Shown here: piece by piece, positions 1,895 through 38,600 of the stretch
Position numbering within the stretch: the stretch's first letter is position 1
Layout of the letters: every line of letters begins with the position of its first letter
NCBI GenBank assembly: GCA_013115145.1
Contig: JAAPAO010000329.1
Span: 1 to 38,894, forward strand
Length of the DNA stretch: 38,894 nt
From: Perkinsus chesapeaki
Lineage: Eukaryota; Perkinsozoa; Perkinsida; Perkinsidae
Direction of reading: 5' to 3'
The notes under the pieces: generated by a model
Told to the model about the DNA's origin: nothing
The model's database searches: none
The model's input: the letters and a program-made list of their open reading frames with translations, nothing else
Position numbers and translations under genes: made by a program

Positions 1895-3657
1895 TCAACA
1901 GCAACACCATCTCATAAGTTCAACACCATTCCAAGCCTGTTGTCGGCCGATTTTCTGTTTTTCTATCAGAATTTCCCGAAGTTCCAGAGCTGCTCTGCCA
2001 TCAGTTTCCGATAAGTGGCTTTCTAGCAAAAACTGAGATCTCAGCGATCGCTCCTTCGCCAACAATTCTTCGTATCGGACAACGCTTGGGCTCGCCTGAC
2101 GAGGATTTCGTGGCGCGCAAGAAACAGTTTATCCCACATCCACAGGAGGAGGGACCAAATGCTTCTCCATCAACTTCATATTTTGTTTCCCCTTCGCCAT
2201 GACCCTGCGCATGCGTGCAGATTCTGGTATCCTTGCCAAAGCTATCGAGCTGAGAAAGCCTGTACGTCCATCCGGGCGTACCGTCATACCGACAAATCCT
2301 CCGCCCTAACACCAACCGTTAGCGACTAGCCGGACTCTTGGCAAGTACCATTCGTGGAGCAGAGGGGCCTGGTGACAGCCGAGAGGAGGTCGAAGGAGCG
2401 ATGAAATCCGAGGCGGAGCGATGCAGACTGTCGCTCTCCTTAGGTAGCAGACGCCTGTTGGGAGCAATAACGCTGTCAAGGAAACTCAACGATAGAACAA
2501 TTGCGAATAATTTCAACAAGTGTGTGAAGTACGTGAATGATAATATAAGGCAGTCGAGATGCGTGCTAGAAGACATCAACAGATATTATAATTTTACCAT
2601 ACGAGTTGATAAAGTTAATAAGGCGAAAATGCACGTCAGTGGAAATTGCTGTGTATCCCCTCACCTCGCTTTCCGAACGCTTCGCCCAAGCAGAGCTTCC
2701 AACATATCATCTCTAAAATATGAGCTGCTGGGGATCGAACCTGCGTCATCACGCCTACCTTCCTTTCGCTGCTTCTATTGGAGTTAACCCACCAGGATCA
2801 TTGACAAATACCGATGCTTTGCAATGAACCAAAAGGGAGACCTTAGAAGTGAGTTAGTCTGTAACATAAGTACGAATCTTACCAGTTCACAATTGCCGGT
2901 TTTTACCGCAGCCACGAGGCAAGTATGGCCACTCCCACTCGAACTGGAGTCAACAAACGACGCTCTCTCCGCAGAGTCAGACTCTAAGAATCTCAAGCTC
3001 GACCGTGCATGATGCAAAACAGGTAAGCCTACTTCGAGAGGCCAAAGCTAGAAGAGTTGCAGCATTATCTGTGATGCCTAAAACGCATGCCAAAAAGAGC
3101 GGAGTAAATCCTCCGCGATGAGTTCGTATCTTCACATCTGCACCATTCTCGATAAGTAACTGCGAATTCTACTTTCACACTTCCCAGTGAATCCCTGCCT
3201 ACTTTAATGCATTCCGAAGCGCCCTCACACATTGCGGCATGATGCAGCGGAGCGAAGCCGCTTTTTTTATCAATATTTTTGCCATCTGCTCCGGCATGTA
3301 GAAGAGTTGATAAAGTTTTCGGGTTGTTCGTCCACACGGAGAGTAGGAGAGGCGAAGCTCTTAAAGAGGCTAGCTTCATCAAAGGTTGCCCTGCATCGAG
3401 CATGGACCTGTTGAATTGGGAATAATGCTAACACCGGGAATTGAACCCAGGATCTTATACATACTTTAGGAGACGCTCGTCGGCCAAAGCGATACTTCTA
3501 TAAAAATCAAACAAGCCATCATTGCCATCATCTGTCGCACTGGCATCGATGGACATGTTCAAGTCCAACTGAAATGATATGAAAGACACCTTCACGTTCA
3601 ACCTACCTCATCGAGAACCGGGTTGACTTCTTGTGTGACAGCAGACCGCCGAACCAT
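1895..3657 (-). CDS. ankyrin-repeat protein, multi-exon
   Basis: The gene starts at the ATG at 3657 (MVRRSAVTQEVNPVLDE) and ends at a TGA at 1895-1897. Ankyrin repeats are visible in order: LLHAGADGKNIDKKSGFAPLH, LLIENGADVKIRTHRGGFTP, a GHTCLVAAVKTGNCEL unit and VNDPGGLTPIEAAKGR. The C-terminal part is non-ankyrin and ends in a charged helix (RYEELLAKERSLRSQ) and the tail RWCCC. Ankyrin arrays mediate protein-protein contacts; no partner can be inferred. Introns include 3408-3464, 2984-3032, 2713-2758 and 2096-2137, all phase-consistent, and three of the four known intron cores occur here. The exon around 2350-2566 is less certain: an acceptor further in, just before SVIAPNRR, has the same phase and would remove a hydrophobic stretch. 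The KH gene starts only 87 nt downstream. Confidence 0.8.
2096..2137 (-). repeat. intron with GGCGCG core
   Basis: A 42-nt intron of the ankyrin gene; the plus strand carries ATTTCGTGGCGCGCAAG (about 2105-2120). Splicing joins HLVPPPVD to ASPSVVRYEELL in phase. Confidence 0.55.
2713..2758 (-). repeat. short intron with T-arm/B-box core, sense
   Basis: A 46-nt intron of the ankyrin gene containing GCAGGTTCGATCCCCAGC. Splicing joins AAKGR to DDMLEALLGR in phase 2. Confidence 0.6.
2984..3032 (-). repeat. intron with GCATCATGCAC core, copy 1
   Basis: A 49-nt ankyrin-gene intron containing CTGTTTTGCATCATGCAC and a downstream AGCTTGAGATTC, closely matched by the intron at 9579-9634 of an unrelated gene. 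Confidence 0.6.
3408..3464 (-). repeat. short intron with T-arm/B-box core, sense
   Basis: A 57-nt intron of the ankyrin gene containing CCTGGGTTCAATTCCCGG. Splicing joins DERLLK to SMLDAGQPL. Confidence 0.6.
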
Positions 3658-3808
3658 AAAGGACAAAGAAATCTTCGCCGATTCTATAGTGCTAAGATCC
3701 AAGAAAATCCATACCAAGAAATAGATATTCGATAACTCAAGCCGCTCTAATGTTTTACATTAATAACAACATCATTCACACGAACATGATCGACAACAAG
3801 ATGATAAA

Positions 3809-4588
3809 TCAAGATATAACGCAGCTCGTACATTTTGTTACTTTTTTCTTACGGGGCTTTACTGAGGACCTCAACTGGTCTCCATCATTATTAATATTAA
3901 CCTGCTCACCAGTGTTAATCTCCGACTCGCTCTCTTGCCTAGCCTTCATCGACTCTTTATCATTCTTAATCGATTCTACTTGACCATTTTCTTCACTAAA
4001 CTTGTCAGTTTCCTCAGCAAGTCCTTCAGCAGCGATAGCCTCCAGCTTGCCCTTATTTTCGGCAGCCTTCCCCATTTCCTCATAATCTTCAGCGTTAGTC
4101 AGTTTCCCTATCATACCTTATATCGAAAGGGAAAACAATGTTCTCGACAATCGCTGTCTGCCTCCAATTCTTCCTCCGTTCATATCCCCCCAACTTGCGA
4201 GCCTGTGTACCAAATCCCAACCTCAGTTGTCTACCGTTCACAAGGGACGCTCTGAAAGCTGAGTCAAAGCTGGTGCTATCAGCCAGACAGTTTTTGAAGG
4301 TTGTGAAGGCCGCTGACTCATTGGGCTCGCATACGAATTCGACATCTCCATCATTGACAGCAATACCTTTTAACCACGGACTTTCACAGGTTGTATTTGG
4401 TTTCATAGCCTTCGCTCCAGTAGTAGTATTTAAACGAAGTTTCAGAGTCCCTTCATTTGAATGAAAGCTGACTCGATGTAGCCGTTCTTGAACCTAAACG
4501 AGAGTCCAGCTTGAGCGATATACCATAGGCTCAGAAATGAAACAAGTATCGTCATCGGAGCCAGGTTAGTGGATAGTAGACCAGCCAT
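3809..4588 (-). CDS. small secreted-family protein S1 with CaaX-type end; two apparent frame breaks
   Basis: This belongs to the same family as the proteins at 5064, 5859, 12547, 13858, 14559 and 20100. It has a signal peptide (MTILVSFLSLWYIAQAG), then the family landmarks KNGYIE, ESPWLKG with a following NDGDVEFV strand, an AAFTTFKNCL helix and LRLGFG. The C-terminal third is acidic and then basic (KPRKKKVTKCTSCVIS) and ends in CVIS, a classical CaaX prenylation box. As read, the protein breaks twice: near 4473 one base seems missing (GAG-TC) and near 4105-4110 a GGG run seems one base too long. Correcting both is suggested by alignment to the paralogue at 5859, so these are probably assembly indels, although a young pseudogene is possible. 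No function is known for the family. Confidence 0.6.
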
Positions 4589-5063
4589 TATCACCAAAAC
4601 AACTGATGAACGAGACAAGGGCCTGACCGTCAATGAGACCTGTCGATTGAAGTAGCAATCCGTTTGAATAGTTTGACAGAATAGTATATATGTTCCGATG
4701 ATCTATTGAAAACGAAATGTGACCTTGTTATAATAACAGATGAAATTATCCTATCCAAAGTGGTAGTCGAATCATCATTACTCTAGACGACCTTGTGAAA
4801 GGGGAAGAAAAAGGACAAGCTTGAAAATAATAAGAACAACGTTGTAAATAAAATCATGAGATCTGGAGAACCTGCAAATTCACACCCCGGAGGTCTTTCG
4901 TTACATTTTATTAAGAGAATATAAATTTCCAAGTCAACAAGAATGCTTCCCTTCATGAGAAACATCAATCACAGCAACACCGTGATGGATATGTCACGTG
5001 ACCTTGGGCGATCAGGATAGGTCAGGATATACTGCAGCTCTTCATTCGGCCACTTCTTCTTCT

Positions 5064-5585
5064 TCACCGCAGCTTCCGCCTACCAGACCTCACCGACTCT
5101 TTCTTTACATCAATCTTCATTCCCGCAGCAGCTGCTCTATCAGGTGCAACAGGAAATCCTATACACTTGATAACTTGCTTTTCGGGATCCCCAAAAGCCA
5201 AAATAAGATAACCCTCATAAATGATGAAAGCTTTGGAGCCATTGCCGAGGCCAGAAGCCTCGGCCAACTTGTTCTCAAACTCATCATAGACCTCGGAATG
5301 AGTTGGGACAAAGTCGATATGGTCAGACCCTTCGTAGCCCTCTCCATCCAGTAAACGGCTGACAAGTATTTCACCCGATCGTATGGCATTCGGCCCAGTA
5401 ATAATGCCACCAAGAGCCCGCAGGTCCCTGCTTTCGAGCGACCCAGTCATATCGATTTCCACTGAAGCAGCCTGAACTGGCTTATCAAACCTCTTCACGA
5501 TCCCAGCGTGAGCGATACAACACAGGTTCATGAAGAAAAACGATTTAGGAGACGACGCGGATTGGCGAGAGTGAAGTCTTGACAT
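5064..5585 (-). CDS. small secreted-family protein S2
   Basis: An intronless 173-residue reading frame. After a hydrophobic leader (SFFFMNLCCIAHAG) it carries the family pattern: SVEIDMTGSLES, then GSDHIDFVPTHSEVYDEF, KLAEASGLGNGSKAF and YLILAFG. These align by eye with VYDEF/AYRQF/AAFTTF and LAFG/VAIG/LGFG in the neighbouring members. Unlike S1 and S3 it has no C-terminal CaaX box; it ends in a basic RSGRRKLR. The start is uncertain because there are two upstream methionines before the hydrophobic stretch. Function unknown; secretion is inferred from the leader only. Confidence 0.6.
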   Translation of the reverse strand: MSRLHSRQSASSPKSFFFMNLCCIAHAGIVKRFDKPVQAASVEIDMTGSLESRDLRALGGIITGPNAIRSGEILVSRLLDGEGYEGSDHIDFVPTHSEVYDEFENKLAEASGLGNGSKAFIIYEGYLILAFGDPEKQVIKCIGFPVAPDRAAAAGMKIDVKKESVRSGRRKLR

Positions 5586-5858
5586 TTTACTACTGAAAAC
5601 TGCCGACGATAATTCCAGCCAACATTAGAACAGGAAAATCATTTTCGGCTGGTGATCTCTATTGCGTTCGGCGACACTTCGAGTGCGATTGGCTCCTTCC
5701 GCCGCGGATAGAGATGGACTACTGAGGAAGAATACAAAACGATGGCTTGAATGCACAATAATAATCCCAAGTCAAGGGACATCAGCAGCCTTATCCTCAA
5801 CTCAAAATGGGACATATGAGGACAACATCACACATGAACAGCTTTGAAGATTGAGAAA

Positions 5859-6392: not shown

Positions 6393-6526
6393 AGATGAAG
6401 AGGGAATGTCAACTAATAATGATACAGCTTTGAAAGGGATAATTGTCTACCCGACACGAATAATGTAAGGGGAGAATTTTGACCGTGCGTAGCGATCTTA
6501 CAATAACAGTTCGAGTCAATACCATT

Positions 6527-6895: not shown

Positions 6896-7267
6896 GCTCT
6901 ATAAGTGAAACCAACAACCGATATGTAATCATCCGGTCTGCAGTCGCTACAGCAATACCTGTCCAAAGTAGTGTACCACAGTATTGATAGGATCGATAGT
7001 CTGGATGAAAGTGGGGGGGACATGGAGATAACTGGAAAATCAATTTATAAAACCCACACTACTTGTAAGATTCAATAGGCCCAACTGAAGCAGGCAGATC
7101 GAACGAGTGCCACTTTGTAATATATAACGGATTCACGTACTACAAGGTAACAGAAACTACTGATAAGCCTGTGGTACTAACAAAAATGAAAAAAAGGCTT
7201 CGCTCCGCCGACCTCCCGCTCCAAAACGCAACAAGCCTAATTCATAACGGCCGCATCAATCAACATG

Positions 7268-10200
7268 TCACTCGTCGGCCAGTACTTCAAAGAGAAACCT
7301 TACAATTTCAGGATCACCGTTTGGGACCTGGAAAATTAAGGTATCTTTTGAGCCATGGAATGCATGGTTAACCTCGTAGAAATGCTGTCCATCGATCGCT
7401 ACAGAAACCTCTAGCAGCACCGACTGGCCTGCCTCCACTGACAGCTGTGACGCCGTGACGCGACCTGTCTCGAAGTGAACGAGTGGTGAATCCTCTTCAT
7501 GCATTTTGACTCCGCCAGGCACCTATCAAGCTTCGAGCCATTTCAGTTCGAAACTTCGCCAACCTCATATTCAAACGGCTTCCTCTCTTCCTCATCACCT
7601 TCCGCCTGTGTATGAACGTATCTTGCGCACAGCGTAAAATATCTTTGCGCACTATAAAGAATCCACCTGCGTATCTTACCTCATCTTAACCTTAACATTA
7701 TCGTAGCTGATGTCCGGCGATAGGTCGCCCTTTCCAAGTCGAACACACAACACTGTCCCCGCTGGAACTGCGCTTTCCAAAGTTAATATATTCCCATCTA
7801 AAAAAGGCGGAGCGAAGCTCATCGACCGAACGCCTTACCTTCCTCCTCCGTCCACTGCTCTACAGACTTGTACAAACCTGGCAGGATCCGGAAGCATTTA
7901 AGCTGACCTGAAAAATATCTTTGGAATCGTATGGTGAACAGAGGGTAGACCTTCGCTCGTATCCGAGAGGGGAAGAAGATACCTGAAATTTCACTGCGCC
8001 ATAAAATTCGTTGCCGCCCCTACGTGAAGTGGCATCGTTCCTTAGAATATTCAGCACCATCATTCAGCGAGACTTCCAAAGGTAATTGTAGGTACCTCTA
8101 CAATTTCAGAAATGACGAGGAAGGAGCGGTATGAAACTGGCACACGTGCCTACCTTCGATGTGATGTCGTCTATGTCCTCTGGTATCAAATCAGCCAATT
8201 TCGGCATGGTGAAGAAAAGGCAGACTTTTCCTTCGCCGCCAGTCTAGAACGGAGAAGTCCATGTGTACGCATGCGCACGCCTCACCTCAGCCGTCACCTC
8301 CGAGATTTCCTTTCTATTGATTTTTTGAGATCTCAACTCGCCATCCTTATGCAGAATAACCTGATGTAATTTCGTGGCGCGTGAAGTATACCCGACTCAC
8401 TCGAATTTTCGGTTTTTTCGTAACGACCGGCATTTTCCCTCCTAACAGCATCTTGACTTTCGTCTCATGGAGTCCCTCGCCGACCGCCGGAACAATCCCG
8501 TCGATCGTGAAGGAATAAACCTGCAATAGATTACAGAGCTTCGCTCCGCTAGGAAATATCTCACCTTAAATGGGATTGGTGGATCCAATTGTGTTTGCCC
8601 CTCATCGAAACTGACTTGCACAAAAACTTCAGCCGAGTCGTCGATGATGCGCGTGTCAAAGGCGGGGCACAAGCAGCAGACGCCCTGGCACGAACAAGAA
8701 GCCGGAGCGAAGCAAACGAGAGCTTTCCTACATCAGCAGTTCTCCAGCCGGGCACTTTGATCTGTAGACTTTCCATTGGCTTGAGGCCTTGCAACATCTC
8801 AGAGTCGGCGTACCTGTGACGGTGACACCATAGGTCCCGAGTTCGAAGCCCAGCAAAGGACATTCTTCCTCCCCTGAGAGACGGTCCTATCGAACAATAG
8901 ATCCCTCGATAAAACGAATAATATGAAGATAATCAATGATTCAGTTAGCTCTGAGATGCTCCGAGCAATGGAACCCTCTACAAGTGTGAAAGGCAAAGTA
9001 TAAATTGACAGGGGCCTGGAAGCGCAGCTCTCGGAGAGCTGGAGGACATGGTCAAGGAAGTGACCACCATAAACTTCAACAGTCATACCGATAAGTACGG
9101 TGGATGATGAGGAGCCATTAGCAGATGACAAATAGGACTCATTCATGGGAAATAGATTCGATACCGCTGCAAGGGTGCCCCGTGAAGCTGGGTGACGTAC
9201 ACATCGTCATAGTCCTCCATATCCACGGCCTTGGCATCGGACTTGCACTGGATGTTGAAGACCACCAACAAGGACTCATCCTGGAAATAATGATGAAGCA
9301 GCTGAGCCATAGGGGGAGTGATGAAGAGATTAATAATGAGACGGACGAATTGTGGGGAATAATAACGTCACCATGCGGAAATGTTGAGACAGTCTCTCAG
9401 AGGAGATGAGCTAGATACCAAGTATGTGACGAAGGGGGACTGTCACACTCACCGGCAAGTTAGCTGGGAGGACGGGTGGCCCTCCGCATGGCTCTCCGTC
9501 GATGGTGAGACCAGGGGCTCTAGGAAGGCATATTGTCAGTGGAGCACCGCCAACAACAGATGCACAGTTAGGGCGGACCTTGATGGAATCTTCAAGTTCA
9601 CAGTGCATGATGCAAAATAGGTTAAGAGCTTTACCACAAGCTGCCGTTCGGGGAACCTCAACACGGCGATCTGTGCGGAGCCTCCATCACCAATTGCCGT
9701 CCACGTTAAGCCTTCATCCAACGACAACTGAGGAAAAATACAGTAAAAACACACGAGGGGAGAATCGAACCCACCTGAACATTCAAAAACGTTGCAGTCG
9801 TTGCAGTATCGACAACAGACTGCATCGGTGATAACGAGAGGTCGGGGAACTTGAAGTGCACCAATCCACAAACCGGAGCATCCTAAAACCGGATGGCCGT
9901 AGGGCACATGGCCGGGAATACTCACTATAACTCGACCTTCAACCATGTGATCGAGCGAGGGACTTTGATGCGTCAAGCGGACTTTAGGGAGGACATCACT
10001 CCGAGATAAGCCTAGACGCAAACTTGACCTAGTTTGTATCTTTCCGAAAGGCTCCACCTGTAACACGCAGAGTTATCGCCGTTCCACCATTAAGGCTGGC
10101 AATACGAGGTTTAACCTTGAGTATGTGGGATGGCGAGAAGACATATACCATCTGACGATGAAAGGAAAAGTCGGTATGGAAAGTGTACGGCTTTACACTA

Positions 10201-12482
10201 TCAGTTGCCAACATTTTTCCGATGCTTTTGATAGGCCCTTGTAGGTTATATTCTGACGGGAACGGTGGTCCCATTTCCTGTAACAATATTAATCAGCGTT
10301 CTTGCAACTACTCGGATGGACGTCACCAGCGGTCCAATGAATCCCTGTCTCGAATTTGGCGTGTCGACCCCAAAAGTGTATCGTCCTGTATGAAAGGGAC
10401 TTATTCACTGACCCGAACGGCGCTGGCTCACGCTCTTCTCGATCGATGAATTTTTTCGAAAATAAGTCACTTTTCTCCGGCTGCTCGTTCACACTTTCAG
10501 ACGCCACAGCAGCAGCATCAGCAGCTCCTTCGATCATTTCAATTGGTTTCGCACTCGACAGATTCTGAGAATTCTTCAGATCAGCTCAGTGTCTTCCGTG
10601 CCGACTTTTCCCGCATAATAAAAGCCTCTAGCCCCTCCAGATGCTCTCGTTGTTCCATCAGCCCATACAGCAGTAAAGAGCTGACCGCATGCAACATGTG
10701 TCACGTCCCTGACAAACTTCAAGTGTCTCTTTGGCCCTCAACCCACTGACCAACTGGACCATTTCTAGAATGCGAAAGATCACTCCGAGAACTGTGAACT
10801 TCTCATTTCTGCCATTCTACGATCTAACCCTTCCGATGACGCTGCCTTCATTGTTGGGTAGTCTGCTCTTGGCAGAAGGATATTTTTGACGCAGGTGAGT
10901 AACTTTCCTCGCTACTTGCAATTCTGGCCTTCGTATATTATATGATACAAAAAAATATGGTGACAATATTTTCCATGTTTTTGCTTGGAACGCCTTCAGC
11001 TGGCACTGCCAAATGGAACGGAAGCTCGCAGAGTGCTAAGACAGAATTTCCAACGCTTTGCTCCGGTAGCGAAGAAGACAAGATGGAATCCGGATTCGCT
11101 GTTAAGTTCCGCGATCGAACTCACTTGACCATATCGATCTTTTCCGGTACCCATCGGCTTTTGAGATCTCCAAACCCGAGTTGACCATGAGAGTTGAGAC
11201 CGAAGCTGGAATACAGTATTATAAATAGATAACTTGAGCTCACCTGTAGGCATATCCGCTGCCATCCACAACCACTGAGTGTGCCCAACCAGCAGCAATC
11301 ATGGATATGCTGGTGGAAGAACTGTCCTGATCTTAAAACAGAAAAGATAATCATGACACGCTTCGCTTCACAACCTCACTCTCTTTGTTTGTTGGAACTG
11401 GTAATTCCACAAAGGACGGCTGCTCCATCGAGGAGACCTTCCGAACGATCTAAATGAAATCTTGGTGCACTTACGGACCTTGCATTTCCTCAACGTACTC
11501 CCAGTTGGCCACACGTATTGTCGCCCCAAGCGACACATTGCTGTAGACCCGTGATACCGAGGCAATGGTTTCCGCCAATTGCTAAAGTGATAATCTAAAA
11601 GACATGCTCTTACTGGGATTCGAACTCGGAACTCGTTCCAACTTTCAGCTTGGTGAGTTGATTAGAGAATTTCGGTATAGAACTAACCAGGCCCAAATTG
11701 GCAGCTTCTCCGGCGAAATTATATCCCCAGGAGTATCTGACAGTGGTCTGAACAGCCCTGACTGCTACGAAGCGAAACTTACACATCTCCTCCTCGGGTT
11801 ATTGCAAAACATGTTCGACCACCAGCGGCTACGTATCGAATGGGGATGCCTCGGAAAGTTGGTATCTATCAAAAAACGCCACGCATGTGCACTTAGTCTT
11901 CATTCGGATAAAATACCTCCACCCAGACATTGTCTTTCCCAAGATGTCCTGCCCCTCCAAGGCCACGAGGAGCAGGGGGATGTCCTAGGCTAGTCGAGGC
12001 GCTGTAGACTCTCCCAGATCTACCTGGAAAGGTCGCGAGTTCGATTCCCGGCAAGAACACTCCAAAATTACCAAGTGCAATAACGCTACCCTCGCAAGTG
12101 GCTATCATTTTAATATCCTCTTCTATCGACAACTCAGAGCTAACGATCGAATTAGTATCTGAAAATGCCTCAGCCAGGAATCGAACCCAGGACCTCACTA
12201 CCGTCAATCTGAAGCAACGCGCACTTAACCGTATCGTGACCTGCGTAAAATGCTTTGCCAGAAGGCCTTTGTGGCGGACATACCCGAGGACGTCACGATA
12301 GAAACCGAAGAGCCAGACGATGATGAGCATTCAATCCTCGAGCCACTAAGACCCGGTAGATGAACGAGACGATCTTCTCGAGTACTCCTCAGCAAGAAGG
12401 CATCCCCCGATGAAATTAGTGCCATGCGGAGAATACAAAACCGTATGGAAGGACTGACGCCACCTGGGATGGACAAACGCAT
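7268..12482 (-). CDS. RCC1-repeat and IPT/filamin-like domain protein, about 25 exons
   Basis: The first exon begins at the ATG at 12482 and the last ends at the TGA at 7268-7270 (FLFEVLADE). The N-terminal half carries RCC1 beta-propeller repeats: VYSWGYNFAGEAANLG, AIGGNHCLGI, QCVAWGDNTCGQLG, AAGWAHSVVVDGSGYAYS, FGLNSHGQLGFGDLKSRW and HVACGQLFTAVWADGTT. From about 10280 downward the sequence becomes beta-sandwich repeats of IPT/TIG or filamin type, for example PRIASLNGGTAITLRVTG, LTWTAIGDGG, NCASVVGGAPLTICLP and CSPYDSKDIFQVSLN. RCC1 propellers act in guanine-nucleotide exchange or as protein scaffolds; IPT/filamin folds are binding modules. Over 20 introns of 28-82 nt are phase-consistent. 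Five places (near 10720, 10580, 9147, 8025 and 7876) need one extra base. Two adjoining genes merged here, split near 10290, is the main alternative. Confidence 0.65.
7798..7838 (-). repeat. intron with GGCGGAGCGAAGC core
   Basis: A 41-nt intron of the RCC1/IPT gene; the plus strand carries GGCGGAGCGAAGCTC. Similar cores lie in the introns at 8521-8564, 8685-8731, 11332-11379 and 11737-11782. Confidence 0.5.
8361..8400 (-). repeat. intron with GGCGCG core
   Basis: A 40-nt intron of the RCC1/IPT gene; the plus strand carries AATTTCGTGGCGCGTGAAG. Splicing joins VVTKKPKIR to VILHKDGELRSQ. Confidence 0.6.
8521..8564 (-). repeat. intron with GCGGAGCGAAGC core
   Basis: A 44-nt intron with CTAGCGGAGCGAAGCTC on the coding strand, opposite orientation to the 7798 copy. 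Splicing joins DPPIPFK to VYSFTIDGIVP. Confidence 0.55.
8814..8861 (-). repeat. short intron with T-arm/B-box core, antisense
   Basis: The plus strand reads CCGAGTTCGAAGCCCAGC within a 48-nt GT-AG segment before the exon YADSEMLQGLKPM. The upstream exon boundary is less certain. Confidence 0.45.
9579..9634 (-). repeat. intron with GCATCATGCAC core, copy 2
   Basis: A 56-nt intron of the RCC1/IPT gene containing CTATTTTGCATCATGCAC and AACTTGAAGATTC in the same order and spacing as the ankyrin-gene intron at 2984-3032. Splicing joins FPERQLV to VRPNCASVVGGAP. Confidence 0.6.
9728..9774 (-). repeat. short intron with T-arm/B-box core at its donor
   Basis: A 47-nt intron beginning GTGGGTTCGATTCTCCCC, so the core overlaps the splice donor. 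Its removal joins TATFLNVQ to LSLDEGLTWTAIGDGG. Confidence 0.6.
11595..11642 (-). repeat. short intron with T-arm/B-box core, sense
   Basis: A 48-nt intron containing CCGAGTTCGAATCCCAG on the coding strand. Removing it joins QLTKLK to IITLAIGGNHCLGI, restoring an RCC1 repeat. Confidence 0.6.
12024..12071 (-). repeat. short intron with T-arm/B-box core, antisense to gene
   Basis: A 48-nt GT-AG intron. The plus strand reads CGAGTTCGATTCCCGGC, a tRNA T-arm-like core, so the core lies antisense to the host gene. Splicing joins VIALG to RSGRVYSASTSLG in phase. Confidence 0.6.
12159..12240 (-). repeat. tRNA-like intron (82 nt)
   Basis: This intron of the RCC1 gene is the most tRNA-like in the window. 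It has a possible D arm (CAC GATACGGTTAA GTG), a loop CTTCAGA that would place UCA at the anticodon position, and a T arm/B box (CTGGGTTCGATTCCTGG). The 3' acceptor-like GAGGCA has no 5' partner and the anticodon stem is poor, so it is not a functional tRNA gene; it looks like a tRNA-derived insertion that is spliced out. Confidence 0.5.
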
Positions 12483-22508: not shown

Positions 22509-25500
22509 ATGTCGGAGGTTAATAGGAAGAAAGAAGGCCTCGACGATGAGGGCTTGAGTTCGTCATCTTCATCTGAGGATGAAATGGGACCCGCGCCAAT
22601 GGTGAGCTAATATGTATCTTATCAATTCAACCTAATTCGAATCTTTAGCCCGCGCCCGAACCAGCCAAGAAGCGACGGAAGGTCAAAAGGCAACTCGCCA
22701 ACGAGAAGGAGTATCTTGAGAACCTTCCGAGTGCGAAAATGTACGAGAAGAGCTTTATGCACCGGTAAGGTCAAAAGATATTTTTCGGCTCAAGTATATG
22801 CCCCTCAGAGCGCCGATTTCGCACGTTGTCGTGTCTAAGTCGCAGGAATTTATCATTACGTGCTCCACCGACGGTCATGTTAAATTCTGGAAGAAACGGA
22901 AGATCGGGGTAGATAGCTGAGGACCCCAAATCGACCTCAAATGAATCTTTCAGGTCGAGTTCGTTAAGCATTTCGCAGCTCACAAAGGTCCCATAGGATC
23001 TGTCACCATGAGCGCGTCTGGGTTGGAGTTTGCTACCCTCGGCAAGCAAGACAAGTAGTACCACCGATGGGCCACTGGAAAATGGTACATTTTTGAAGCG
23101 CTATCTTCACAGGTGCATTAAGGTATTCGATGTCGCCGGCTTCAACATGATAATGATGCACAAATTCACCGGTTTTGAACCTCTTGCGTGTTGCTTTGTC
23201 CACGAAGCCGATTCGCCAACTCCAACTCTGGCAATCTCGAGCGCGACTGACAGTAAGATACGGTAGGCTATCACACTGTAAATATTCCTTCCTGGAAAGG
23301 CACCGTGGAAATCTGGCCGATATCGAAGCTGGGAAATCCCAAGGCCAAGCCAAAGAAATATACTGCTCATTTGGACCCTGTCCAACACATTAAGTAATTA
23401 TACCCTCCCTGGGATTTGAACTCGAGACCTTTTAAGGTATAACGATAAGCTTAAACTGGTTGTCTCGATTGATGCTGGTGGACTTATCGATATATGGGAC
23501 CCTACTACATTGGAGTTGCCGGAAAGTGTTTCCTTCGACTCTAAATTTGATACCAGCCTTTTCGAGCTCAAATCGGCGGAGGTACTAAGTGGGAAGAGCG
23601 GGGTGGATGGTTAATTATTAAATGACTCCGTGGTGGTCTCGATACCAGATATCTCGGGTTGCATATCTTTAATGAAGTGAGATTCTCATGCAGTGTCCAG
23701 CAAAATGACACTCCGAACGCAAGGGGGGCTCCCCTTGAGCTCCTGACAGCCTACAGAGTTTGGCATCGTGGCTCCAGGGTGGCATGGAGTATAATGTCGA
23801 TTCTTAAAGCTACCAAAGTTGAGAATTGTTATTGGGCTTTGCGGAGTAGTGCCATGGTAGAGTAACGTGTACTGGTGAAGAATCAAATTTGAGTTCTCGG
23901 CAGCGTAACAGTTTTTCCTATCTTCATGAGATTATACTGTTATACAGTGTGACACTTCTGAGGTATATGCTCCTCGGACAGCGCTGGGCCATACCTCTCC
24001 CGAGCTTCATAATTCCACCATCTTGCTGTGGTTGAGGTGCGAGAATCGCTCGTTAAGTTTATGCAACCTCTCCCCTTTACCGAATTGACCGCCAGCAATA
24101 TCGATATGCTAGGATCGAATCCTTGGCTATTGGTCATCAGCCTATTGCATCATTTGTAATATTGGTATTTCAGACCACTGCATTGGATCTCTCTATCTCT
24201 CCGGATGGTAACTTATTCGCCGTCCTCGGTAAGGACTCTCAAGTAAGAGTATTCAGGACCAAGTACGAGCCGGTTGCCCGCCGCCTCGGTAGTATCTTTT
24301 AGGTCGGGTAAGCTCTTCAAAGCGTTCGACGAATCTTTGGACGCGACCAGCATAGCTCAGTCGGATCCTTTAATGAAACAGGTCCATCTTGATGGGTAAC
24401 AACGTTCATTAATTTCGTGGCGTGTGACGGTTTCTGTAGGTTCGATTTCGGTCGACGGTGTGCTGTTGAAAAGGAGTTGCTGAGATCACCGGACGCGATG
24501 TTCCAGACGATCGATTTCGACCAGTCTGGCAACTTCATCATTTATCCGACCATGGTTGGTATCAAGGTAAAAGATAGTATCTTTAGGTTAGCTTTCGATC
24601 TTGTGCCGCTCAGATAGTTAATCTGGTCACTAACCATTTATCGGCCTTATTGGGCAAGGTTGAATCGAGTGAAAGATTCCTCGCAACCGCACTGTAAATA
24701 TATTCCTTTCTATGTCGCTCCAACTTGCTCCAACCGTTTAGATTGCAACCAAAGCCCATTCGTCAGAAGGTCAATCCCGGTGGAGAGGAGAACATGGCAG
24801 CAGCTGGCGCCGGAGCGTACGAGTATGTCACCGACCCGACCTTGGTGGCTTCAAGGTGAGGGGGAGAAGGAAAAAGGCGAAGTGAGAACCATGTATGGCA
24901 GTTTCAAGAAGAATCGGTTCTATCTCTTTACGAAGCGTTTGCCGAGTGATACCGGAGCAGGCCAGCAGAGAGATATCTTTAACGAGAAGCCAACGGCGGA
25001 TGAGATGGCAGCTGCAGCCGCTGCAACAGGCGGTGATAGGAAGCCACAAATCAAGTAGAGGTGGTGACACGACTGGTGACATGACGAATGCATTAGGATT
25101 GGCAAGAAGGCTGTCATACATACTGATTACGGTGACATACAAATAGAACTATACGGAAAGTTGGTACCCAAAACTGTTGAGAATTTCAGCAAACATGCAC
25201 AGGATGGATATTATGACGATGTGCTTTTCCATAGGGTAAAATGCCGCATGCCGGGATCGAACTTGGGATCCCGTATATTGCTCAGGTTATCAATAAGTTT
25301 ATGATACAGACGGGTGATCCCGAAGGAACTGGTATGGGTGGCACGAGCATCTGGGGAGGCGATTTCTCCGATGAATTCGTAAGCTGACGGCTTTGATAGG
25401 TTTGATATCGGAAAACAGGTTCCCGAATTGGACCATTCGGAGCCCTATATGGTTTCGATGGCAAACGCCGGACCTAATACGAATGGTTCGCAGTTCTTCA

Positions 25501-25912: not shown

Positions 25913-25931
25913 TCTAAAGTTAACGTTTCAC

Positions 25932-26453: not shown

Positions 26454-26617
26454 GCCGATGCTGTCATTCTTGTTGGGGTTATTAAGTTGAGTTGAATAGT
26501 CATGAGGTATGATTAAATTCACTTCACAATACCTGCTGTCCGACTCGCAGTATTATCCTCGTAATCGTTTCAGACTCAAACTTTGAGTGTCGCTGTACCG
26601 AAAGTCCGAAAAACTTG

Positions 26618-26907
26618 TTGTTACTTATTACCATAAGATTGTCGTTGTTGTTACTTATTACCATAAGATTGTCGTTGTTGTTACTTANNNNNNNNNNNNN
26701 NNNNNNNNNNNNNNNNNNNNNNNNNNNNNNNNNNNNNNNNNNNNNNNNNNNNNNNNNNNNNNNNNNNNNNNNNNNNNNNNNNNNNNCGTTACTTATTACC
26801 ATAAGATTGTCGTTGTTGTTACTTATTACCATAAGATTGTCGTTGTTGTTACTTATTACCATAAGATTGTCGTTGTTGTTACTTATTACCATAAGATTGT
26901 CGTTGTT
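26618..26907. repeat. 30-bp minisatellite interrupted by assembly gap
   Basis: Tandem copies of a 30-bp unit (GTTACTTATTACCATAAGAT followed by TGTCGTTGTT) with very few differences. Because 30 is divisible by 3 and the unit has no stops in several frames, long spurious reading frames cross it on both strands. True copy number is unknown because of the gap. Confidence 0.95.
26688..26786. other. assembly gap (99 N)
   Basis: A run of N inside the minisatellite; the array was not resolved by the assembler, so its real length may be much greater. Confidence 0.99.
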
Positions 26908-27534
26908 AATATTTGGGTTTGCCAGATATTATTTCCAATTGCTCGGTTCGCTTGTCCATAAGAAATCCAGGAAGCTTCCGGTGTGATCAGCCACGGTGAT
27001 TCGATGAAATTCCCGACATTAGTTATAACGACCATCAGAGCAGTGGGTAAACTAATGCTGCTACCGGAGCACGGGTCCAGTGCATTATATGCATTACAGA
27101 ACCGATCCATTAGTTCGCCTGCTCCATCTCTTAAGCAACTCAATACCATATCATAGATGAAAGTAGATAGCGATGACTCAAAATAAAGAGACAAATAAAA
27201 TATGCTATACCAAACTAACTCTTCTAAGACTCCCCGCAGAGCGCCATGCACCCGCATGGGTTGCAAACCAGTCGAACGCAAAAAAATCGAATGGGAAATT
27301 ATTTCCCATGATAGAATAACCTAGCTCAGCGAGACCCAGCCGACGCAGTGCAATATAAACCGATATGTCTACATTACCGTTCTACTATTATAATGCTGAG
27401 TGCAAGCCTAAGAACAACTACATGGCCGCTTCATGCGCTATGAGGATGAGATACCCCACCACGAAGAGATACAGTGAGACTATAAACGGCGAACGAAAGC
27501 TAAGGCATTGGACGAAACATGATCGACGCGCCTT
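26908..27534. other. intergenic region, no supported gene
   Basis: AT-rich spacer between the minisatellite and the stop codon of the first subtilase. The open frames here are short and show no signal peptide, domain or splice logic. Confidence 0.5.
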
Positions 27535-28860
27535 TCAACGAACAGCGGCTTTAATCGTGTTCAAGGCTTCGAGTACTCCACCGTTAGGGTTAATCTGACG
27601 TGACTTAGCATCCAAAGGAGAAGCATTGTGCATTAGAAGAGACTTGATCTGTTTAGGCTCCACATTCAGACCCAATAGCATACCAATCGTACCAACAACA
27701 AACGGAACCGCAAATGACGTACCGGACACCTTGGGAGGACGATTAGCAGTATCGCCAAGGACTTGAACATCCTCTCCGAAGGCAGCAATATGGACCTGTG
27801 GACCATAGTTGCTGCTTGTACTGAGCGTGTAATGCTCAGCGTTTGTAATAGCTCCGACACAGATACTTAAAGTGCTATTGAGCGCACATGGGAGCAATTC
27901 CGGTTCATCGGCGCCATAGTTACCAGCGGCGGAGACTACGATGATGGAACTGTTCACCACTTTATCTAGAGCTCGTAGGAAAAGATATCTAGTCATACCG
28001 GCGAAAGGCCCCGGTTCGATGCGCAAGGAAAGCGACAAGGAAACGACTTCTACGCCAATATCCATTGCCAAATCAAGACCCTCGCTGATTTCGGATAGGT
28101 ACATTTCTTCATCATCATCCGTGACCTTTATACCTATCAGCTTCAAGTTAGGAGCGATTCCGGCCATACCGTGAGAATTGTTAACTTTAGCTGCCATAAT
28201 TTGAGCAATTTTAGTCCCGTGTCTGCGGGTGATATGCGGGTTCGATGTGTTGTAAACAGTATCCCACGAACCATGTAGAATAACACCGTCTGATCTTCTG
28301 AATACGCCCCTGGCTGGAGCAAGATCCGGGTCGCTGAAGTCAATGCCATCATCTATAATGGCAACCGAGACGTCACGTAGAGTATGCTGATGGACCAAGT
28401 CCCACACCTCAGGCATGTGCATGCGTTTCAGTTGACATTGGGTGCAAGCACCGGGGTCGTTGACATGCAAGTCGCATTCACACCGTTTAGGATTATGTCC
28501 TCCATCAAGTTTGGCGACAGGATTGTCAGCGCATATGACCAGGATATCTGGAAGCAGTCTAGAAGCCATTGCAGTGTAGTTGCAGAACGTAACAGAATCC
28601 ACATGATCGACGGAAGTCCACACGATCTGAATATTCAAGTGTGTCAAAGTCTTTATTCTAACCGACTTGATGAAAGAAGATATCTTAGGATCAGTAACAT
28701 ATCCGATCTTCTCTTTTAATAGTGAAGGTAGACTGTGAACATCTATCATCTCCTTGGGCTGAGTAGTATTAGTAATTGATAGAAGTGTTCTACCATCACC
28801 GGCAGCTTCAGAGTTAACCAAATAAAAGAGTAGAGGTAGAATCATCATAGTCGACAACAT
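27535..28860 (-). CDS. secreted subtilisin-like serine protease, copy A
   Basis: An intronless frame of 441 residues. A signal peptide (MMILPLLFYLVNSEAAG, about residues 5-21) and a propeptide are followed by a peptidase S8 domain. The catalytic triad is complete: Asp170 in VAIIDDGID, His214 in RRHGTKIAQ, Ser382 in SGTSFAVPF; the oxyanion Asn314 is in SAAGN. Subtilases of this size are known secreted proteases of Perkinsus and are considered virulence factors acting on host proteins; that role here is inference. Asn-linked glycosylation motifs are frequent. The first roughly 295 nt, plus 29 nt upstream of the ATG, are nearly identical to copy B at 31294, whereas the protease domain is clearly diverged. 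Confidence 0.93.
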   Translation of the reverse strand: MLSTMMILPLLFYLVNSEAAGDGRTLLSITNTTQPKEMIDVHSLPSLLKEKIGYVTDPKISSFIKSVRIKTLTHLNIQIVWTSVDHVDSVTFCNYTAMASRLLPDILVICADNPVAKLDGGHNPKRCECDLHVNDPGACTQCQLKRMHMPEVWDLVHQHTLRDVSVAIIDDGIDFSDPDLAPARGVFRRSDGVILHGSWDTVYNTSNPHITRRHGTKIAQIMAAKVNNSHGMAGIAPNLKLIGIKVTDDDEEMYLSEISEGLDLAMDIGVEVVSLSLSLRIEPGPFAGMTRYLFLRALDKVVNSSIIVVSAAGNYGADEPELLPCALNSTLSICVGAITNAEHYTLSTSSNYGPQVHIAAFGEDVQVLGDTANRPPKVSGTSFAVPFVVGTIGMLLGLNVEPKQIKSLLMHNASPLDAKSRQINPNGGVLEALNTIKAAVR

Positions 28861-31293: not shown

Positions 31294-32706
31294 CTACATA
31301 CCGGCTTCGTTAAGAGCACCCTTGATAGTATTTAAAATCTCGAGCGCGCCACCATGAGGATCGATCTGACGAGATGTCCTAGCCAAGGGAGAAGCATAGC
31401 GCATTAGAAGACGCTTTATCTGAGCAGGCTCCACCTTCAGACCTAATAGAATTGCAACTGTACCGGTTACAAATGGTACAGCATATGATGTACCGGAGTC
31501 CGTCACAGGCATACCAACACCATCATCGCACTTATAATCAACTTGAACCTTATCGCCAAATGCAGCAATTTGTACCTGTGGGCCATAGTTGCTGTATCTG
31601 GCGAGGCTGTTGTCATCAGTATTGTTGCGTAGAGCTCCTACGCAGATACTATTGGATGCGTTGTAGGCACACGGGACGGTGGTCGGATCGTTTTGGCCTC
31701 TGTTTCCGGCGGCAGAGATAATAATGATGTTTCTCCTTTCCAATTCACTCATAGAGTACTCCAACATAATACAGTCTCTACTGCGCTTAGATGGGCCGCA
31801 AAAGAACGAGAGAGATATGGAGATGACATCTACTTCAATATCGATTGCCAAGTCCAAGGCGTCGAGAACTTCAGACAAGAAAAAATCGTCATTGTTGTCT
31901 GAGACTTTTATACCCATAAGTTTTACATTAGGAGCTATTCCAACCATACCGAAAGAATTGTTTGCTTTTGCTGCCATTATACGGGCAATCTGAGTCCCAT
32001 GATACTCCGTGATATGTGGGCTTGCTGTATCGTAAAAGGTATCCCAGAAGCCTTGTAGAACACCTCCATTTGACTTTCTAAACGTCCCACGAACAGGCTT
32101 AAGATCCGAGTCTTCGAAATCAACACCATCGTCTATGATGGCAACCGAGGTGTCCCGCAGAGGATACTGGTGGATGAGATCCCACACCTCGCGCATGTGC
32201 ATGCGTTTAAGATGGGTTTCCGAGCATGCACCGGGGTCGTTAACTTTCAAGTCATCACAGAAACCAGTACATTTCTTAGTTCTTACATTCTTAGTTGATC
32301 CTCCGTTACGTTCAGCGGGAGCATTACCGTCGCATATGGCCAGGATGTCAGGTAGTAGTTTCGAGGCCATGGCAGTGTAGTTACAGAACGTAACAGAATC
32401 CAAATGACCGACGGAAGTCCACACGATCTGAATATTCAAGTGTGTCAAAGCCTTTATTCTAACCGACTTGATGAAAGCAGATATCTTGGGATCAGTAACA
32501 TATCCGATCTTCTCTTTTAATAGTGAAGGTAGACTGTGAACATCTATCATCTCCTTGGGCCGAGTAGTATTAGTAATTGATAAAAGTGTTCTACCATCAC
32601 CGGCAGCTTCAGAGTTAACCAAATAAAAGAGTAGAGGTAGAATCATTATAGTCGACAACATACTTAATGGAAATTGCAGAAGGGAGAATGCTAATACTCG
32701 CATCAC
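31294..32706 (-). CDS. secreted subtilisin-like serine protease, copy B
   Basis: An intronless frame of 470 residues (or 455 if it starts at the MLST methionine used by copy A). Signal peptide and propeptide are nearly identical to copy A. The S8 triad is intact: Asp192 in VAIIDDGVD, His236 in EYHGTQIAR, Ser407 in SGTSYAVPF; the oxyanion Asn335 is in SAAGN. Relative to copy A it has an insert with extra cysteines between propeptide and catalytic Asp (TKKCTGFCDDLK). Copies A and B lie in the same orientation about 2.4 kb apart, so they are tandem duplicates. The additional N-terminal segment (MMRVLAFSLLQFPLS) is hydrophobic and may extend the signal peptide. Confidence 0.93.
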   Translation of the reverse strand: MMRVLAFSLLQFPLSMLSTIMILPLLFYLVNSEAAGDGRTLLSITNTTRPKEMIDVHSLPSLLKEKIGYVTDPKISAFIKSVRIKALTHLNIQIVWTSVGHLDSVTFCNYTAMASKLLPDILAICDGNAPAERNGGSTKNVRTKKCTGFCDDLKVNDPGACSETHLKRMHMREVWDLIHQYPLRDTSVAIIDDGVDFEDSDLKPVRGTFRKSNGGVLQGFWDTFYDTASPHITEYHGTQIARIMAAKANNSFGMVGIAPNVKLMGIKVSDNNDDFFLSEVLDALDLAIDIEVDVISISLSFFCGPSKRSRDCIMLEYSMSELERRNIIIISAAGNRGQNDPTTVPCAYNASNSICVGALRNNTDDNSLARYSNYGPQVQIAAFGDKVQVDYKCDDGVGMPVTDSGTSYAVPFVTGTVAILLGLKVEPAQIKRLLMRYASPLARTSRQIDPHGGALEILNTIKGALNEAGM

Positions 32707-34321: not shown

Positions 34322-34351
34322 ATCTGCAGGGTAAAATATGAAAAACTTCTA

Positions 34352-35467
34352 TTAGCTCCTCGGATAATCGAACCATGGTAACTTGACCACATCTGAGTAG
34401 GCCGCTTGGCTATACGTCAACAGTACAAAACCGACCAGTTGCAGCCAGGACCAAGATGTCCACCTCTCGCCAAACTCTGACCCTGGTAATATGACATAAT
34501 GTATCAGAAGGTCTACCGTCCAAATGACTGCTGTACGGGACGCTTCTATCATTGTTCTATGTACCGCGGTGAGCTTGTATGTCACCATTACGCCAGAGAT
34601 GTTATAACTTAATATCGATACGAAATATATTATTAGATTGGCAACAAGCTGGGGATTGTTTTTCAGCATTTCAAAGGTATCCATGGTATTCTCCAGACTG
34701 CCGCGGTCTTGTCCTGGAAGCCTCTGTAAAACGGGAAATGCTATAAATATCATTAACACACATCCCCAAAGCCCTTCCATCCCAACCAACTGCAAAGGGC
34801 TCACCGTCCACACCTTCAACAAACGTTCTTCACACACGACCTGCCCAGCTTGAACCACTTGCCCGCCGACTATCATCGCCATGCCGAATAACATCAATGC
34901 GGGGTCCTCCCCAGCTGGTGTCGATTCACCCGAACTCATCAGGTTTGAGAAGCCTACGATGAGAATGGCCACCACACACAGTGCTACCGCTCCCCAGTGG
35001 TAAGCATGCAGTTTTCTGCCGAGAAAACACACCGACAGTATCGCACAAAATATGATTTCCGCTCCTCTTAGCATTTGCCATACTGAAGCCGGATTATATA
35101 ACAGCCCAACAAAGCACATGACTGTGGCTGACAAATCCAAGGCGGCTGGTAGGCAAATCACAAGCGACCTTATCATCGGGTTTGAATGGGGGGGCCCTCC
35201 TCGAGCCTCATCATGGTGAAGCAGGGGCTCCTCCTGGTCCACCTTTTGGCCTTCACTTCTCCGTTTTATCGCCACACTGATTAGATGCGCCACGATACTC
35301 AAAGACATGCCCATGAACATCGAGAATGTGTTGAACCATGGCTTAGTGAAGAGATGCTTTTCACCGTCGATACCAACCGACACCGTTTGGAATTGGATTT
35401 TACCGATTAACGTGTTCAGAGCACCGAAGACCAACATACAGACGACGTAAACCACAACCGCCGCCAT
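34352..35467 (-). CDS. SLC35F6-like drug/metabolite transporter
   Basis: An intronless frame of 371 residues with about ten hydrophobic helices, from MAAVVVYVVCMLVFGALNTL to LQLVGFVLLTYSQAAY. Diagnostic for the SLC35F/CRT-like branch of the drug/metabolite transporter superfamily are LVICLPAALDLSATVMCFVG, SVWQMLRGAEIIFCAIL and SVCFLGRKLHAYHWGAVAL. A hydrophilic loop (KVDQEEPLLHHDEARGG) carries an acidic dileucine-type EEPLL signal, suggesting endosomal or lysosomal membrane targeting. The substrate cannot be predicted. The lack of introns contrasts with neighbouring housekeeping genes. Confidence 0.85.
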   Translation of the reverse strand: MAAVVVYVVCMLVFGALNTLIGKIQFQTVSVGIDGEKHLFTKPWFNTFSMFMGMSLSIVAHLISVAIKRRSEGQKVDQEEPLLHHDEARGGPPHSNPMIRSLVICLPAALDLSATVMCFVGLLYNPASVWQMLRGAEIIFCAILSVCFLGRKLHAYHWGAVALCVVAILIVGFSNLMSSGESTPAGEDPALMLFGMAMIVGGQVVQAGQVVCEERLLKVWTVSPLQLVGMEGLWGCVLMIFIAFPVLQRLPGQDRGSLENTMDTFEMLKNNPQLVANLIIYFVSILSYNISGVMVTYKLTAVHRTMIEASRTAVIWTVDLLIHYVILPGSEFGERWTSWSWLQLVGFVLLTYSQAAYSDVVKLPWFDYPRS

Positions 35468-35615
35468 ATTTCTGCTAGCCAGTGGAGAAAACCTACGAAA
35501 AAATCATACCAATAATGAAGCCCTGAAACTCTGTGACACGGTGGGCTTTGGAAACGATATTGAGAAAATACTAAGACAACAGAGGAGATATCTCGAACCT
35601 TTCCATGCGAAGGGT

Positions 35616-38600
35616 TCAAACCAAAAAGTTTAGGAAAGCTCGGCGAGTGAGAATGCCAGCAATTCCTGCGTCAACAGCAACAACCGGCAACCCGTCGGTC
35701 TGCACGTCGAGTTTGGTGGCGACTTCCGCGAGAGATGATTCCAAACCGACTGTCAAAGGCGTCGGTTTGTGTCTGAACATGGAGTCACGCGCCATTAAAT
35801 TAGGCACCACTACACCTACTTGCACTTTTCAACAGTGATGCTCTTAGGGTCATCTGCAGCCGTCAATCGTGCATAGAGATTCGCCACCGTGACCATCTCC
35901 ACGAGCGTTGCAGAATCCTTGACCAATCCCACCTGTAAAGTGGAAGATCTCCAAAAGGACAGCACAGTATTGAATATAAACCCCAAGTTAACAGTACGAC
36001 CGTCCATTCTCACTCGATCGAAAAATCTACAAAAGTCATCGACAGAACTGTTGACCTGGTTATTGAATAAAATACGAAAGCCTACCGATTATTATATACA
36101 GTTATATAATTATACAGTATATACAAAGCTACCTAGCTGCCATATTATGTGCATATAATAATACGTATTAACCTTTGTACAAATTATATTAAATACAGCA
36201 TAAAACATTCCTCAACAAATCACACACTGGTTTGATGCTTTTCCCAGTAAGCATGCAAAGCAACCTCTCATACCCACCTGGTCCGAAAAACTAGAGTCCT
36301 TCTCATGCGCCGCGTTAATCGTCTTTATCGCTTCCGCCGCTGTCATTCTCGACTCCACAGTCGCCATTTTCGATAAAACTATCCCCGACTCTTTCACAGT
36401 AACACTCCCCCATGGCTTCTGGCGATACAAATTAAACCTAAAAAACAAACTACCGAAAAAAGACCAGCATTGCCGTATAACGTTGAGAGCTCTTCGAAGC
36501 CGATGAAACCATGAGCAAGCATCCAACCATCATCCAAGAACTGAAGAAAATCCGAACAATCCGCAATTTCGCCCGAGGTCCCCTACGACTCTACTTTTGA
36601 CATGTAGTTCCGCGATGAGTCAGGTAGAAGCGCCACCACTCTCTTGCCGACCATATCCTCCCGCTTCTGTGATTTAATGTAACGAACCTGTCCAACGGGG
36701 ACAAGATATTGCACAACGCTCAAAGGTGAGGTAATCATATACATCCTCAGAAATATATTATTATGAATATTCTTGATGAGAAATCGGTGACTGTAAAAAC
36801 TTCTTATAGACGAGGTCGATAGATACACTCCGTTCAATACTAAGATGATGTTATATATTTATTATACACAATAGTAATACATCGCATCTCGACCACACCG
36901 CCGTGGCACATGAAATCGACGCACTACAATTTCCTCCATTATGGCGTCACCCCTCTTCCCCAAATACTACCGCAGCTGCCACACATGTCCCCGAGCTCCC
37001 CCCAACAGTTAAGCCTTCCAATCTTATCAATTTGCGTGCCATTCCCAATGCTTCACCATCACCAACTTTCATCCATTCGTCGATTACCGAGGGGTCTCTA
37101 TCAAGCACCTGAAATAAGTCCCAAGTTCGATCCCCAGCGGCGGCAGTTCTCCTTACAGTGGGGATGAAATCGTAACCGATGCCCTCTACTTGATATCCTT
37201 GCAGCCTCCCAGGATCATTCAGGGAATCCGGAACGGCAAGAATCGAGCCGACCGGATCAACGCCCACAACGCGGCCTGAAAAGAGGGTTGAAATGTGATG
37301 GAAAGGATGATAATAAACATAAATGATGAGAGCAATATATTAATAAATCGACTGACATACTATTACATAACGAATATGCAATTATTAATCCGATAATGAA
37401 GGAAGATCACAAAGTGGATGTAGAAGTTACACATCATATAACAAGGTGCCCCGAAAAACGTGGGCGTTTTTCAGTATTCGTGCGAAAGATGTATTTGACG
37501 TTATTACGACTTCCACATACTTTTACGATAAACAAGCATCGACGAAAAGCATCCTAAATTCGCCCTCTATTCTCTCATTACATTTCTCGCCAAATTCATC
37601 CTTAAGCTTCCTGGCCACGCCAGTGATAGTTCCTCCTGTACCGGCACCCAGCACCATTCTAAATACACCCACTTGCCACCGCCAAACTCTTACGCAGCCT
37701 CCTCCTTACACGTCCACTTTGCCATCGCATTGCTCTACTATCTCCGCGCCGGTGCCTTCATAGTGTGCCATCGGATTGGCCGGATTTAGATACTGAATAA
37801 TGTAAATACTAACATTTATTGCAAGTATATAATAAAGTTTGCCAATGAAGGGCTTATTAGACTTGTAGTTATTACTCATTTCCTATATACTATTACTTAT
37901 AATTAATATCAACATTCTTGCTCAATAGCTTCATAACACATCCGAAGCCATGAGAGCTAACCAGAGATGCCGACAACGATTGTGCTAATTCCCTCACAAT
38001 TTCGTGGCGCGTGAAGGCCAGTCCTACTAAACAAATTTTAATCATCTACTGTACATAACCTAATTCTTGCATTTTTATGGTTATAGATGTCCTATCCCAT
38101 CGACGTACAGGAATCCAAATGCGTGCCACACGACAGAGAAATAATATCAGTAAACAGCATTGCAACAACAACTATTATTAAGTATTGGTACTTATACTCC
38201 TTCCATAAGTACTTGTACTTAGTATTGTTAATACTAACCCACACTAACCTGATCCAGTATATGACTCCTTGGTATCTTCTTTTGTAGTTTAATAGCCAAA
38301 CCAATGTGTGATTCCGGAGAGTTCCATGCAGCTTCATTCGGTGTACCTAACAAGGCACTATCCTGTCGCGTTGAACATTATTAATTTCACAAAGTGGAAT
38401 GACAAATTTATTCGAACCTTTTATTCTTAATACGTATTGAAATTCCACCTCAACTACTCTACATTCACCGGTGCAAGGTCGTGGGCGAAATTAAAGCAAT
38501 CATGTGGCCACCAAAAAATGCAGATGATGGTACCAAACCGAGTTGACATAATATTACACCATTACACAGCTCTCGACACTTCACCAATATATATTGTCAT

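Follow-up and report, generated by a model that had tools for sequence, protein, structure and literature searches.

Introduction

Introners have been catalogued by Gozashti et al. 2022 (PMC9860276), who describe 548 families, most of which are read in that paper as DNA transposons. The introner elements of Micromonas are sense-only and linked to splicing, and reverse splicing of the intron has been proposed for them (Verhelst et al. 2013, PMC3879977); in Amoebophrya (Farhat et al. 2021, PMC7789003), introners have non-canonical splice sites and also repeats, both inverted and direct. Here we describe a contig of Perkinsus chesapeaki (JAAPAO010000329.1; 38,894 nucleotides, analyzed whole as C256 and called the window below), from an assembly of 35.4 Mb in 884 contigs, in which ten short introns carry a common element resembling part of a tRNA. 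A preliminary description of the window had noted a shared core in these introns, like the T arm and B box of a tRNA, and had likened them to introners. On balance, we consider it probable that they are spliceosomal introns built on an element corresponding to the 3′ half of a tRNA, and that they belong to an old introner-like family derived from a tRNA or B box.

Like the introners of PMC9860276, the Perkinsus element appears as similar short introns in unrelated genes, and like some families described there it is without duplications and inverted repeats; some families there draw the two splice sites from the place of insertion. Unlike the introners presented in that paper, the Perkinsus element has a body that corresponds to the 3′ half of a tRNA. 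The main text of PMC9860276 makes no mention of Perkinsus, of short interspersed elements (SINEs), or of tRNA. As in Micromonas, the repeat fills the intron to its borders, but whereas the Micromonas introners are characterized as sense-only (PMC3879977), the Perkinsus element is found in both orientations. Amoebophrya, itself an alveolate with a relationship to Perkinsus, offers the parallel of intron elements that are invasive, although in contrast to the introners reported from it (PMC7789003) the Perkinsus element has canonical GT-AG borders and neither inverted nor direct repeats.

Among the titles and abstract openings listed for open-licence papers on introners, intron gain, and Perkinsus, none describes introns derived from a tRNA or B box, and a tRNA-derived source of new introns is possibly undescribed. 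The tRNA-derived SINEs comprise a tRNA-like sequence with a B box and a T run. The Perkinsus element shares all three of these features and differs from such SINEs in mostly lacking an A box, in having no duplications, in its length of ∼45–50 nt, and in forming introns. Extra TFIIIC (ETC) sites are B boxes bound by TFIIIC without an RNA polymerase III (pol III) gene and are known in other eukaryotes; the Perkinsus element resembles them as an isolated, conserved B box outside tRNA genes, and differs from them in being intron-sized with tRNA flanks.

Results

All ten segments run from GT to AG on the coding strand, are 43–82 nt long and, once spliced out, leave a reading frame with 17 or more open codons to either side of every junction. 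The core GTTCRANYCC is exact in eight of them and has one mismatch in the other two, although the literal GTTCGAAYCCC of the preliminary description occurs only once; it lies in sense in five introns and in antisense in five, so the claim of both orientations is borne out. A 42-column motif profile passes nine of the ten at 24.9–38.3 bits.

Two of these introns lie in a minus-strand gene that had been labeled ankyrin, at 2713–2758 (46 nt; core sense; 27.2 bits; open for 31 codons upstream and 17 downstream) and 3408–3464 (57 nt; core sense; 33.9 bits; open for 47 and 114). Five lie in a gene, also on the minus strand, that had been labeled RCC1/IPT. They are 8814–8861 (48 nt; core antisense with one mismatch; 30.3 bits; open for 23 and 84), 11595–11642 (48 nt; core sense; 24.9 bits; open for 52 and 34), 12024–12071 (48 nt; core antisense; 37.6 bits; open for 86 and 43), 12159–12240 (given as 82 nt; core sense with tRNA-like sequence upstream of it; 38.3 bits), and the weakest member, 9728–9774 (47 nt; core sense at the extreme 5′ end with one mismatch; below the profile; open for 36 and 63). 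PPWD1, on the plus strand, has 23394–23436 (43 nt; core antisense; 35.3 bits) and 25236–25285 (50 nt; core antisense; 33.8 bits), and the cystathionine beta-synthase (CBS) gene on the minus strand has 37109–37156 (48 nt; core antisense; 37.9 bits). Because the unspliced frames are broken at 2713–2758, 3408–3464, and 11595–11642, an open frame at these three places needs a splice. The donor of 12159–12240 is uncertain, as splice scoring favors a 40-nt intron (12159–12198) whose spliced frame is likewise open; the 82-nt segment matches the Rfam tRNA model weakly, at 14.3 bits, under the cut-off of 29.

Homology fixes three of the ten, in agreement with the earlier claim for PPWD1 and CBS. Alignment with introns allowed of the Perkinsus olseni protein P0079 returned 23394–23436 and 25236–25285 exactly, and comparison with cystathionine beta-synthase chains in PDB marked 37109–37156 as an insert, the ends of which were also returned by P. 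olseni P0199 (over its residues 145–534, with one CBS intron, of 450 nt, at the maximum length that the alignment allowed). PPWD1 and CBS together contain 29 exons (3,102 nt) and 27 introns, of which 20 are short (925 nt) and the other 7 long (2,465 nt); the intron count takes as one the PPWD1 intron 23582–24173, which came out as two with a 6-nt exon between. All three cores fall in short introns and none in the exons (p = 0.003 by length). The PPWD1 protein is 79% identical to that of P. olseni, and the protein encoded at 34355–35503 on the minus strand is 79% identical to its P. olseni counterpart and 73% to that of P. marinus. These identities place the genome near that of P. olseni. The PPWD1 orthologue P0079 is named “cytochrome P450 monooxygenase 16” at its source, a misfit with its WD40 and cyclophilin domains.

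The profile was seeded with GTTC[AG]A..CC and iterated on 239 kb, made up of the window and 20 further stretches of 10 kb each. Its final round gave 53 matches at ≥15 bits as compared to none in one shuffled set (55 and 2, respectively, at ≥12 bits), and the result that had been named as refuting the claim, a core no commoner than in shuffled sequence, was thus not obtained. Five of the 53 are tRNA genes, and the remaining 48 are the element copies analyzed below. Their consensus, AAAGGTCCCGGGTTCGATCCCCGGTGGGGGCATTTTT, fits tRNA positions 42–73 plus a T run. AGGTC at 44–48, the core from G53 to C61, C72, A73, and TTTT all stand at tRNA spacing, so that the motif extends beyond a B box and matches the 3′ half of a tRNA. 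Neither ARAGORN nor Rfam found a tRNA in the window, and the tRNA model, applied at E≤10 to six stretches rich in the element, matched 4 genuine tRNAs and nothing else. Of three diverged copies that had been listed for the window, the one at 317–332 passes the profile, as part of a plus-strand copy at 311–347 (G53 at 322; 29.7 bits) with no GT..AG candidate around it on either strand; 11109–11124 and 24111–24122 fail, the latter sitting within a long PPWD1 intron.

Throughout the genome, GGTCNNNRGTTCRANYCC occurs 614 times, tRNA genes included, as compared to once for its reversed control. GTTCRANYCC followed after 12–18 nt by TTTTAG was found 80 times (control, 1) and by TTTTAH 186 times (control, 6), and the palindrome GGGTTCGAACCC has 95 sites (control, 0). 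The 239-kb sample holds 19 strict sites, of which 4 read as tRNA genes, as against ∼4 expected from the genome-wide count. Because 14 of the 19 sampled contigs were drawn from the GGGTTCGAACCC list, copy density in the sample exceeds that of the genome, and our estimate of ∼1,000–2,000 copies in total is extrapolated, by way of the strict sites and the 48 copies, from a sample enriched for motif-rich contigs. Density varies sharply among the 20 stretches: L007 and L008 carry 8 copies per 10 kb, and 9 of the 20 carry none. Where 139 copies are cited below, they are the 48, 11 selected by the palindrome, and sets of 40, 20, and 20 selected by the bases after TTTT (AG, AC, and AW).

Whether copies elsewhere lie in introns was judged with splice-site weights trained on 88 short, motif-free introns that had been predicted without the motif, and for each copy the best GT-AG pair of 38–64 nt enclosing it was taken from either strand. 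A score of at least 0 was reached by 94% of the training introns, and by 69% of the 48 copies as compared to 38% of random places; the copies scored above random places overall (p = 2×10−8); solving the mixture at thresholds of 0, 2, and 4 puts an estimated 53–57% of copies in introns. Since these introns were picked by splice signals only, reading frames provide a separate test. Among 95 copies scoring at least 0 and having sufficient flank, a frame was open over 75+75 nt in 76%, as compared to 44% after a 1-nt shift of the acceptor side and 38% after a 2-nt shift (paired p = 4.6×10−6 and 2.2×10−8, respectively). The same held for the 64 sense copies (p = 3×10−5 and 1×10−5), for the 31 antisense copies (p = 0.038 and 0.0009), and for the 33 that belong to the window or to the 20 stretches (70% vs 45% and 39%; p = 0.038 and 0.0065). 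Motif-blind introns gave 73 of 88 vs 36 and 39 of 88 shifted in this test, having been predicted with the frame in mind. The 63 element introns with a single open frame are in phase 0 about twice as often as in phases 1 and 2 (32, 15, and 16). Plain open reading frame rescue around copies did not discriminate (43 of 53 profile matches vs 792 of 1060 random places at 20 codons, and 5 of 53 vs 130 of 1060 at 60), and splice scoring with the shifted-splice control was therefore used instead. A gene finder trained on long open reading frames was too weak, its later versions missing all ten window introns and its coding model being poor on element-rich contigs, and it served solely as the source of motif-blind introns.

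Borders were compared in 33 intron-like copies (score of at least 2) from the window and L001–L040, the search having required that −4 to +13 be covered by an intron of 38–64 nt. In element coordinates, the 18 introns with the element in sense span −18 (quartiles −20 to −13) to +29 (28 to 33), and the 15 in antisense span −21 (−23 to −17) to +29 (26 to 32). Because the borders share element coordinates in both orientations, intron and element are nearly one object in both directions. Within −26 to −6 upstream of TTTTAG copies, GTRRK is present in 20 of 40 as compared to 3 of 40 in a control stretch (p = 4×10−5), and upstream of TTTTA[AT] copies in 10 of 20 as compared to 1 of 20 (p = 0.003). 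We read the T run as adjoining one splice site, as the pyrimidine tract in sense and as a GTAAAA donor in antisense.

The element introns are a minority class. Clear copies are present in only 2 of 90 motif-blind short introns (35.4 and 24.5 bits), with −2.6 bits as the next best score. Ordinary introns carry no vestige of the element, and this lack of residual signal rules out descent of all short introns from it.

Some observations concern other sequences. An identical pair of sites on contigs C403 and C473 proved to be part of a separate, longer repeat and not of an intron (L142:300–546, with 11 matching places, L143–L153, at 72–95% identity to the query). This repeat contains a T-arm-like piece, GGTCGCAGGTTCGAATCCCGGCTAAGACATTTTTT; other copies have GGCACGAATCCC or a similar sequence there. 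On C473 the repeat is broken at this piece, its left and right portions being separated and inverted. Long, near-perfect hairpins at L007:7812–7876 and L007:1598–1682 match unrelated microRNA families below cut-offs and are possibly small inverted-repeat elements. In the window, 27538–28860 and 31297–32661 on the minus strand are two neighboring paralogues, 442 and 456 residues long, whose hydrophobic N-termini are nearly identical, and ∼26527–26983 is a short tandem repeat that would translate as NNNDNLMVIS on the minus strand, with an N run in the assembly.

Discussion

The interpretation of these introns as introners stands with regard to anatomy, since unrelated introns share a core and have the same borders both ways round; the class is introner-like in this sense, and its mobility is putative. 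In the reading that we favor, the intron body would be tRNA positions ∼42–73 (i.e., the variable loop, the T arm with the B box, the 3′ acceptor strand, and the discriminator A) followed by a few T residues that resemble a pol III terminator, with the element placed either way round relative to the gene. As the two orientations are about equally common, copies would have entered exons as DNA or cDNA and not by reverse splicing. The T run would then have given one splice site, a TTTTTAG acceptor in sense and a GTAAAAATG donor in antisense, and the other would have been taken from adjacent sequence. A more specific version, which we regard as speculative and rather unlikely, would have a minimal pol III-type element, with a B box and terminator and no A box, copying itself into exons either way round and being spliced out by means of a T run that serves as polypyrimidine tract or donor; the B box would be selected in place, and the introns would be TFIIIC sites throughout the genome.

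Several results weigh against an introner-like family. None of the 139 copies has a target-site duplication (the longest words shared by the flanks equal those of shuffled pairs), nor are there duplications at the splice borders, including those of the AG|GT kind. A second copy, allelic or paralogous, of two loci tested, which might have shown an empty site, is not present in the assembly. Copies are far apart, unlike the products of a recent burst, with a mean identity to consensus of 25.9 of 36, and among 138 of them (all but L077, the copy that lies in the longer repeat described above) identity to the nearest neighbor was 21.9 of 33 as compared to 21.2±0.1 in column-shuffled data, which indicates weak linkage or subfamily structure; in favor of a family, some pairs are 94–100% alike over 28–33 nt, with flanks of ∼100 nt otherwise unmatched. 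The short complementary arms that had been described around the core did not hold up, since the 48 copies keep 3.31 of 5 T-stem pairs as compared to 3.40 with shuffled partners, and A-box-like sequence is present in just 8 of 139 copies; the element is therefore not a standard SINE head. Five stretches on contigs chosen without the motif had no profile matches other than tRNA genes, and roughly 45% of copies are not explained by introns. In the window, 8814–8861, 9728–9774, 12024–12071, and 12159–12240 are open even unspliced, so for these four introns frames alone do not require splicing. G follows TTTTA in 80 of 266 (p = 0.009 when tested against 0.236), only a mild excess, and for TTTTAC copies a reverse-complement YAG acceptor upstream was not significantly enriched (12 of 20 vs 6 of 20, p = 0.11) and the shifted-splice test on 9 copies was null.

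The core is better conserved than its flanks, so that selection on it is possible. Flank columns agree with the consensus in 29–94%, whereas in places with flanks of at least 4 bits, 0, 1, 2, and 3 core mismatches were found 36, 13, 1, and 4 times as compared to 0, 0, 1.3, and 5.7 by chance, the flank weights being derived from copies found by their core and thus favoring intact cores. Old, neutral copies should have many cores with 2–3 mismatches, so that either selection on the core, for a B-box-binding function, or turnover from many sources would seem to be involved. The core might accordingly be a functional DNA site within introns (e.g., bound by TFIIIC), selected copy by copy, with tRNA-like flanks that are either relics or belong to the site, and with mobility that is minor or long past. 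To this possibility we give a small chance. In its favor, the core is conserved among varied flanks, orientation is immaterial, and the 90 motif-blind introns hold no continuum of decayed copies; the exact core is present in 28 of 33 intron-like copies as compared to 11 of 18 others, an undecisive difference (p = 0.08). Selection on a site does not account, however, for intron borders that match the ends of a unit resembling a tRNA, nor for C72-A73-TTTT at tRNA spacing, and the bias of the flank weights towards intact cores applies here as well.

Alternatively, each intron may be an independent capture of a 3′ fragment of a tRNA or pre-tRNA during DNA repair, with no self-copying family. Column frequencies like those of tRNA genes, the weak linkage among copies, and the lack of target-site duplications are consistent with such captures, but intact tRNA pieces should retain T-stem pairing and these copies do not, and the best match of copies to 26 distinct tRNA 3′ halves, which represent part of the tRNA types in the genome, is 17–25 of 30. 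We thus consider independent capture improbable, and the same two results weaken direct copying of intact tRNA genes as a source.

Movement of introns through reverse splicing, the mechanism suggested for sense-only introners, would account for precise introns without duplications, but insertion into transcripts is not expected to leave about half of the copies in antisense (18:15 among intron-like copies, 5:5 in the window), and reverse splicing is very improbable as their origin. Chance matches to a short, degenerate motif are a negligible explanation, for although the loose 10-mer does match at random (50 times in 239 kb vs 9 for the reversed pattern), the profile and the strict pattern have almost no control matches and the frame and splice tests are positive.

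The origin of new introns is a long-standing question. If our reading of an old tRNA- or B-box-derived family is correct, tRNA-derived introns in both orientations would add pol III relics as a source beyond DNA transposons and sense-only elements, and they would offer a simple rule for how an insertion obtains splice sites in either orientation. They would do so in a small genome, where presence and absence among Perkinsus species can test intron gain directly, and their conserved B box raises a possible link between introns and pol III factors.

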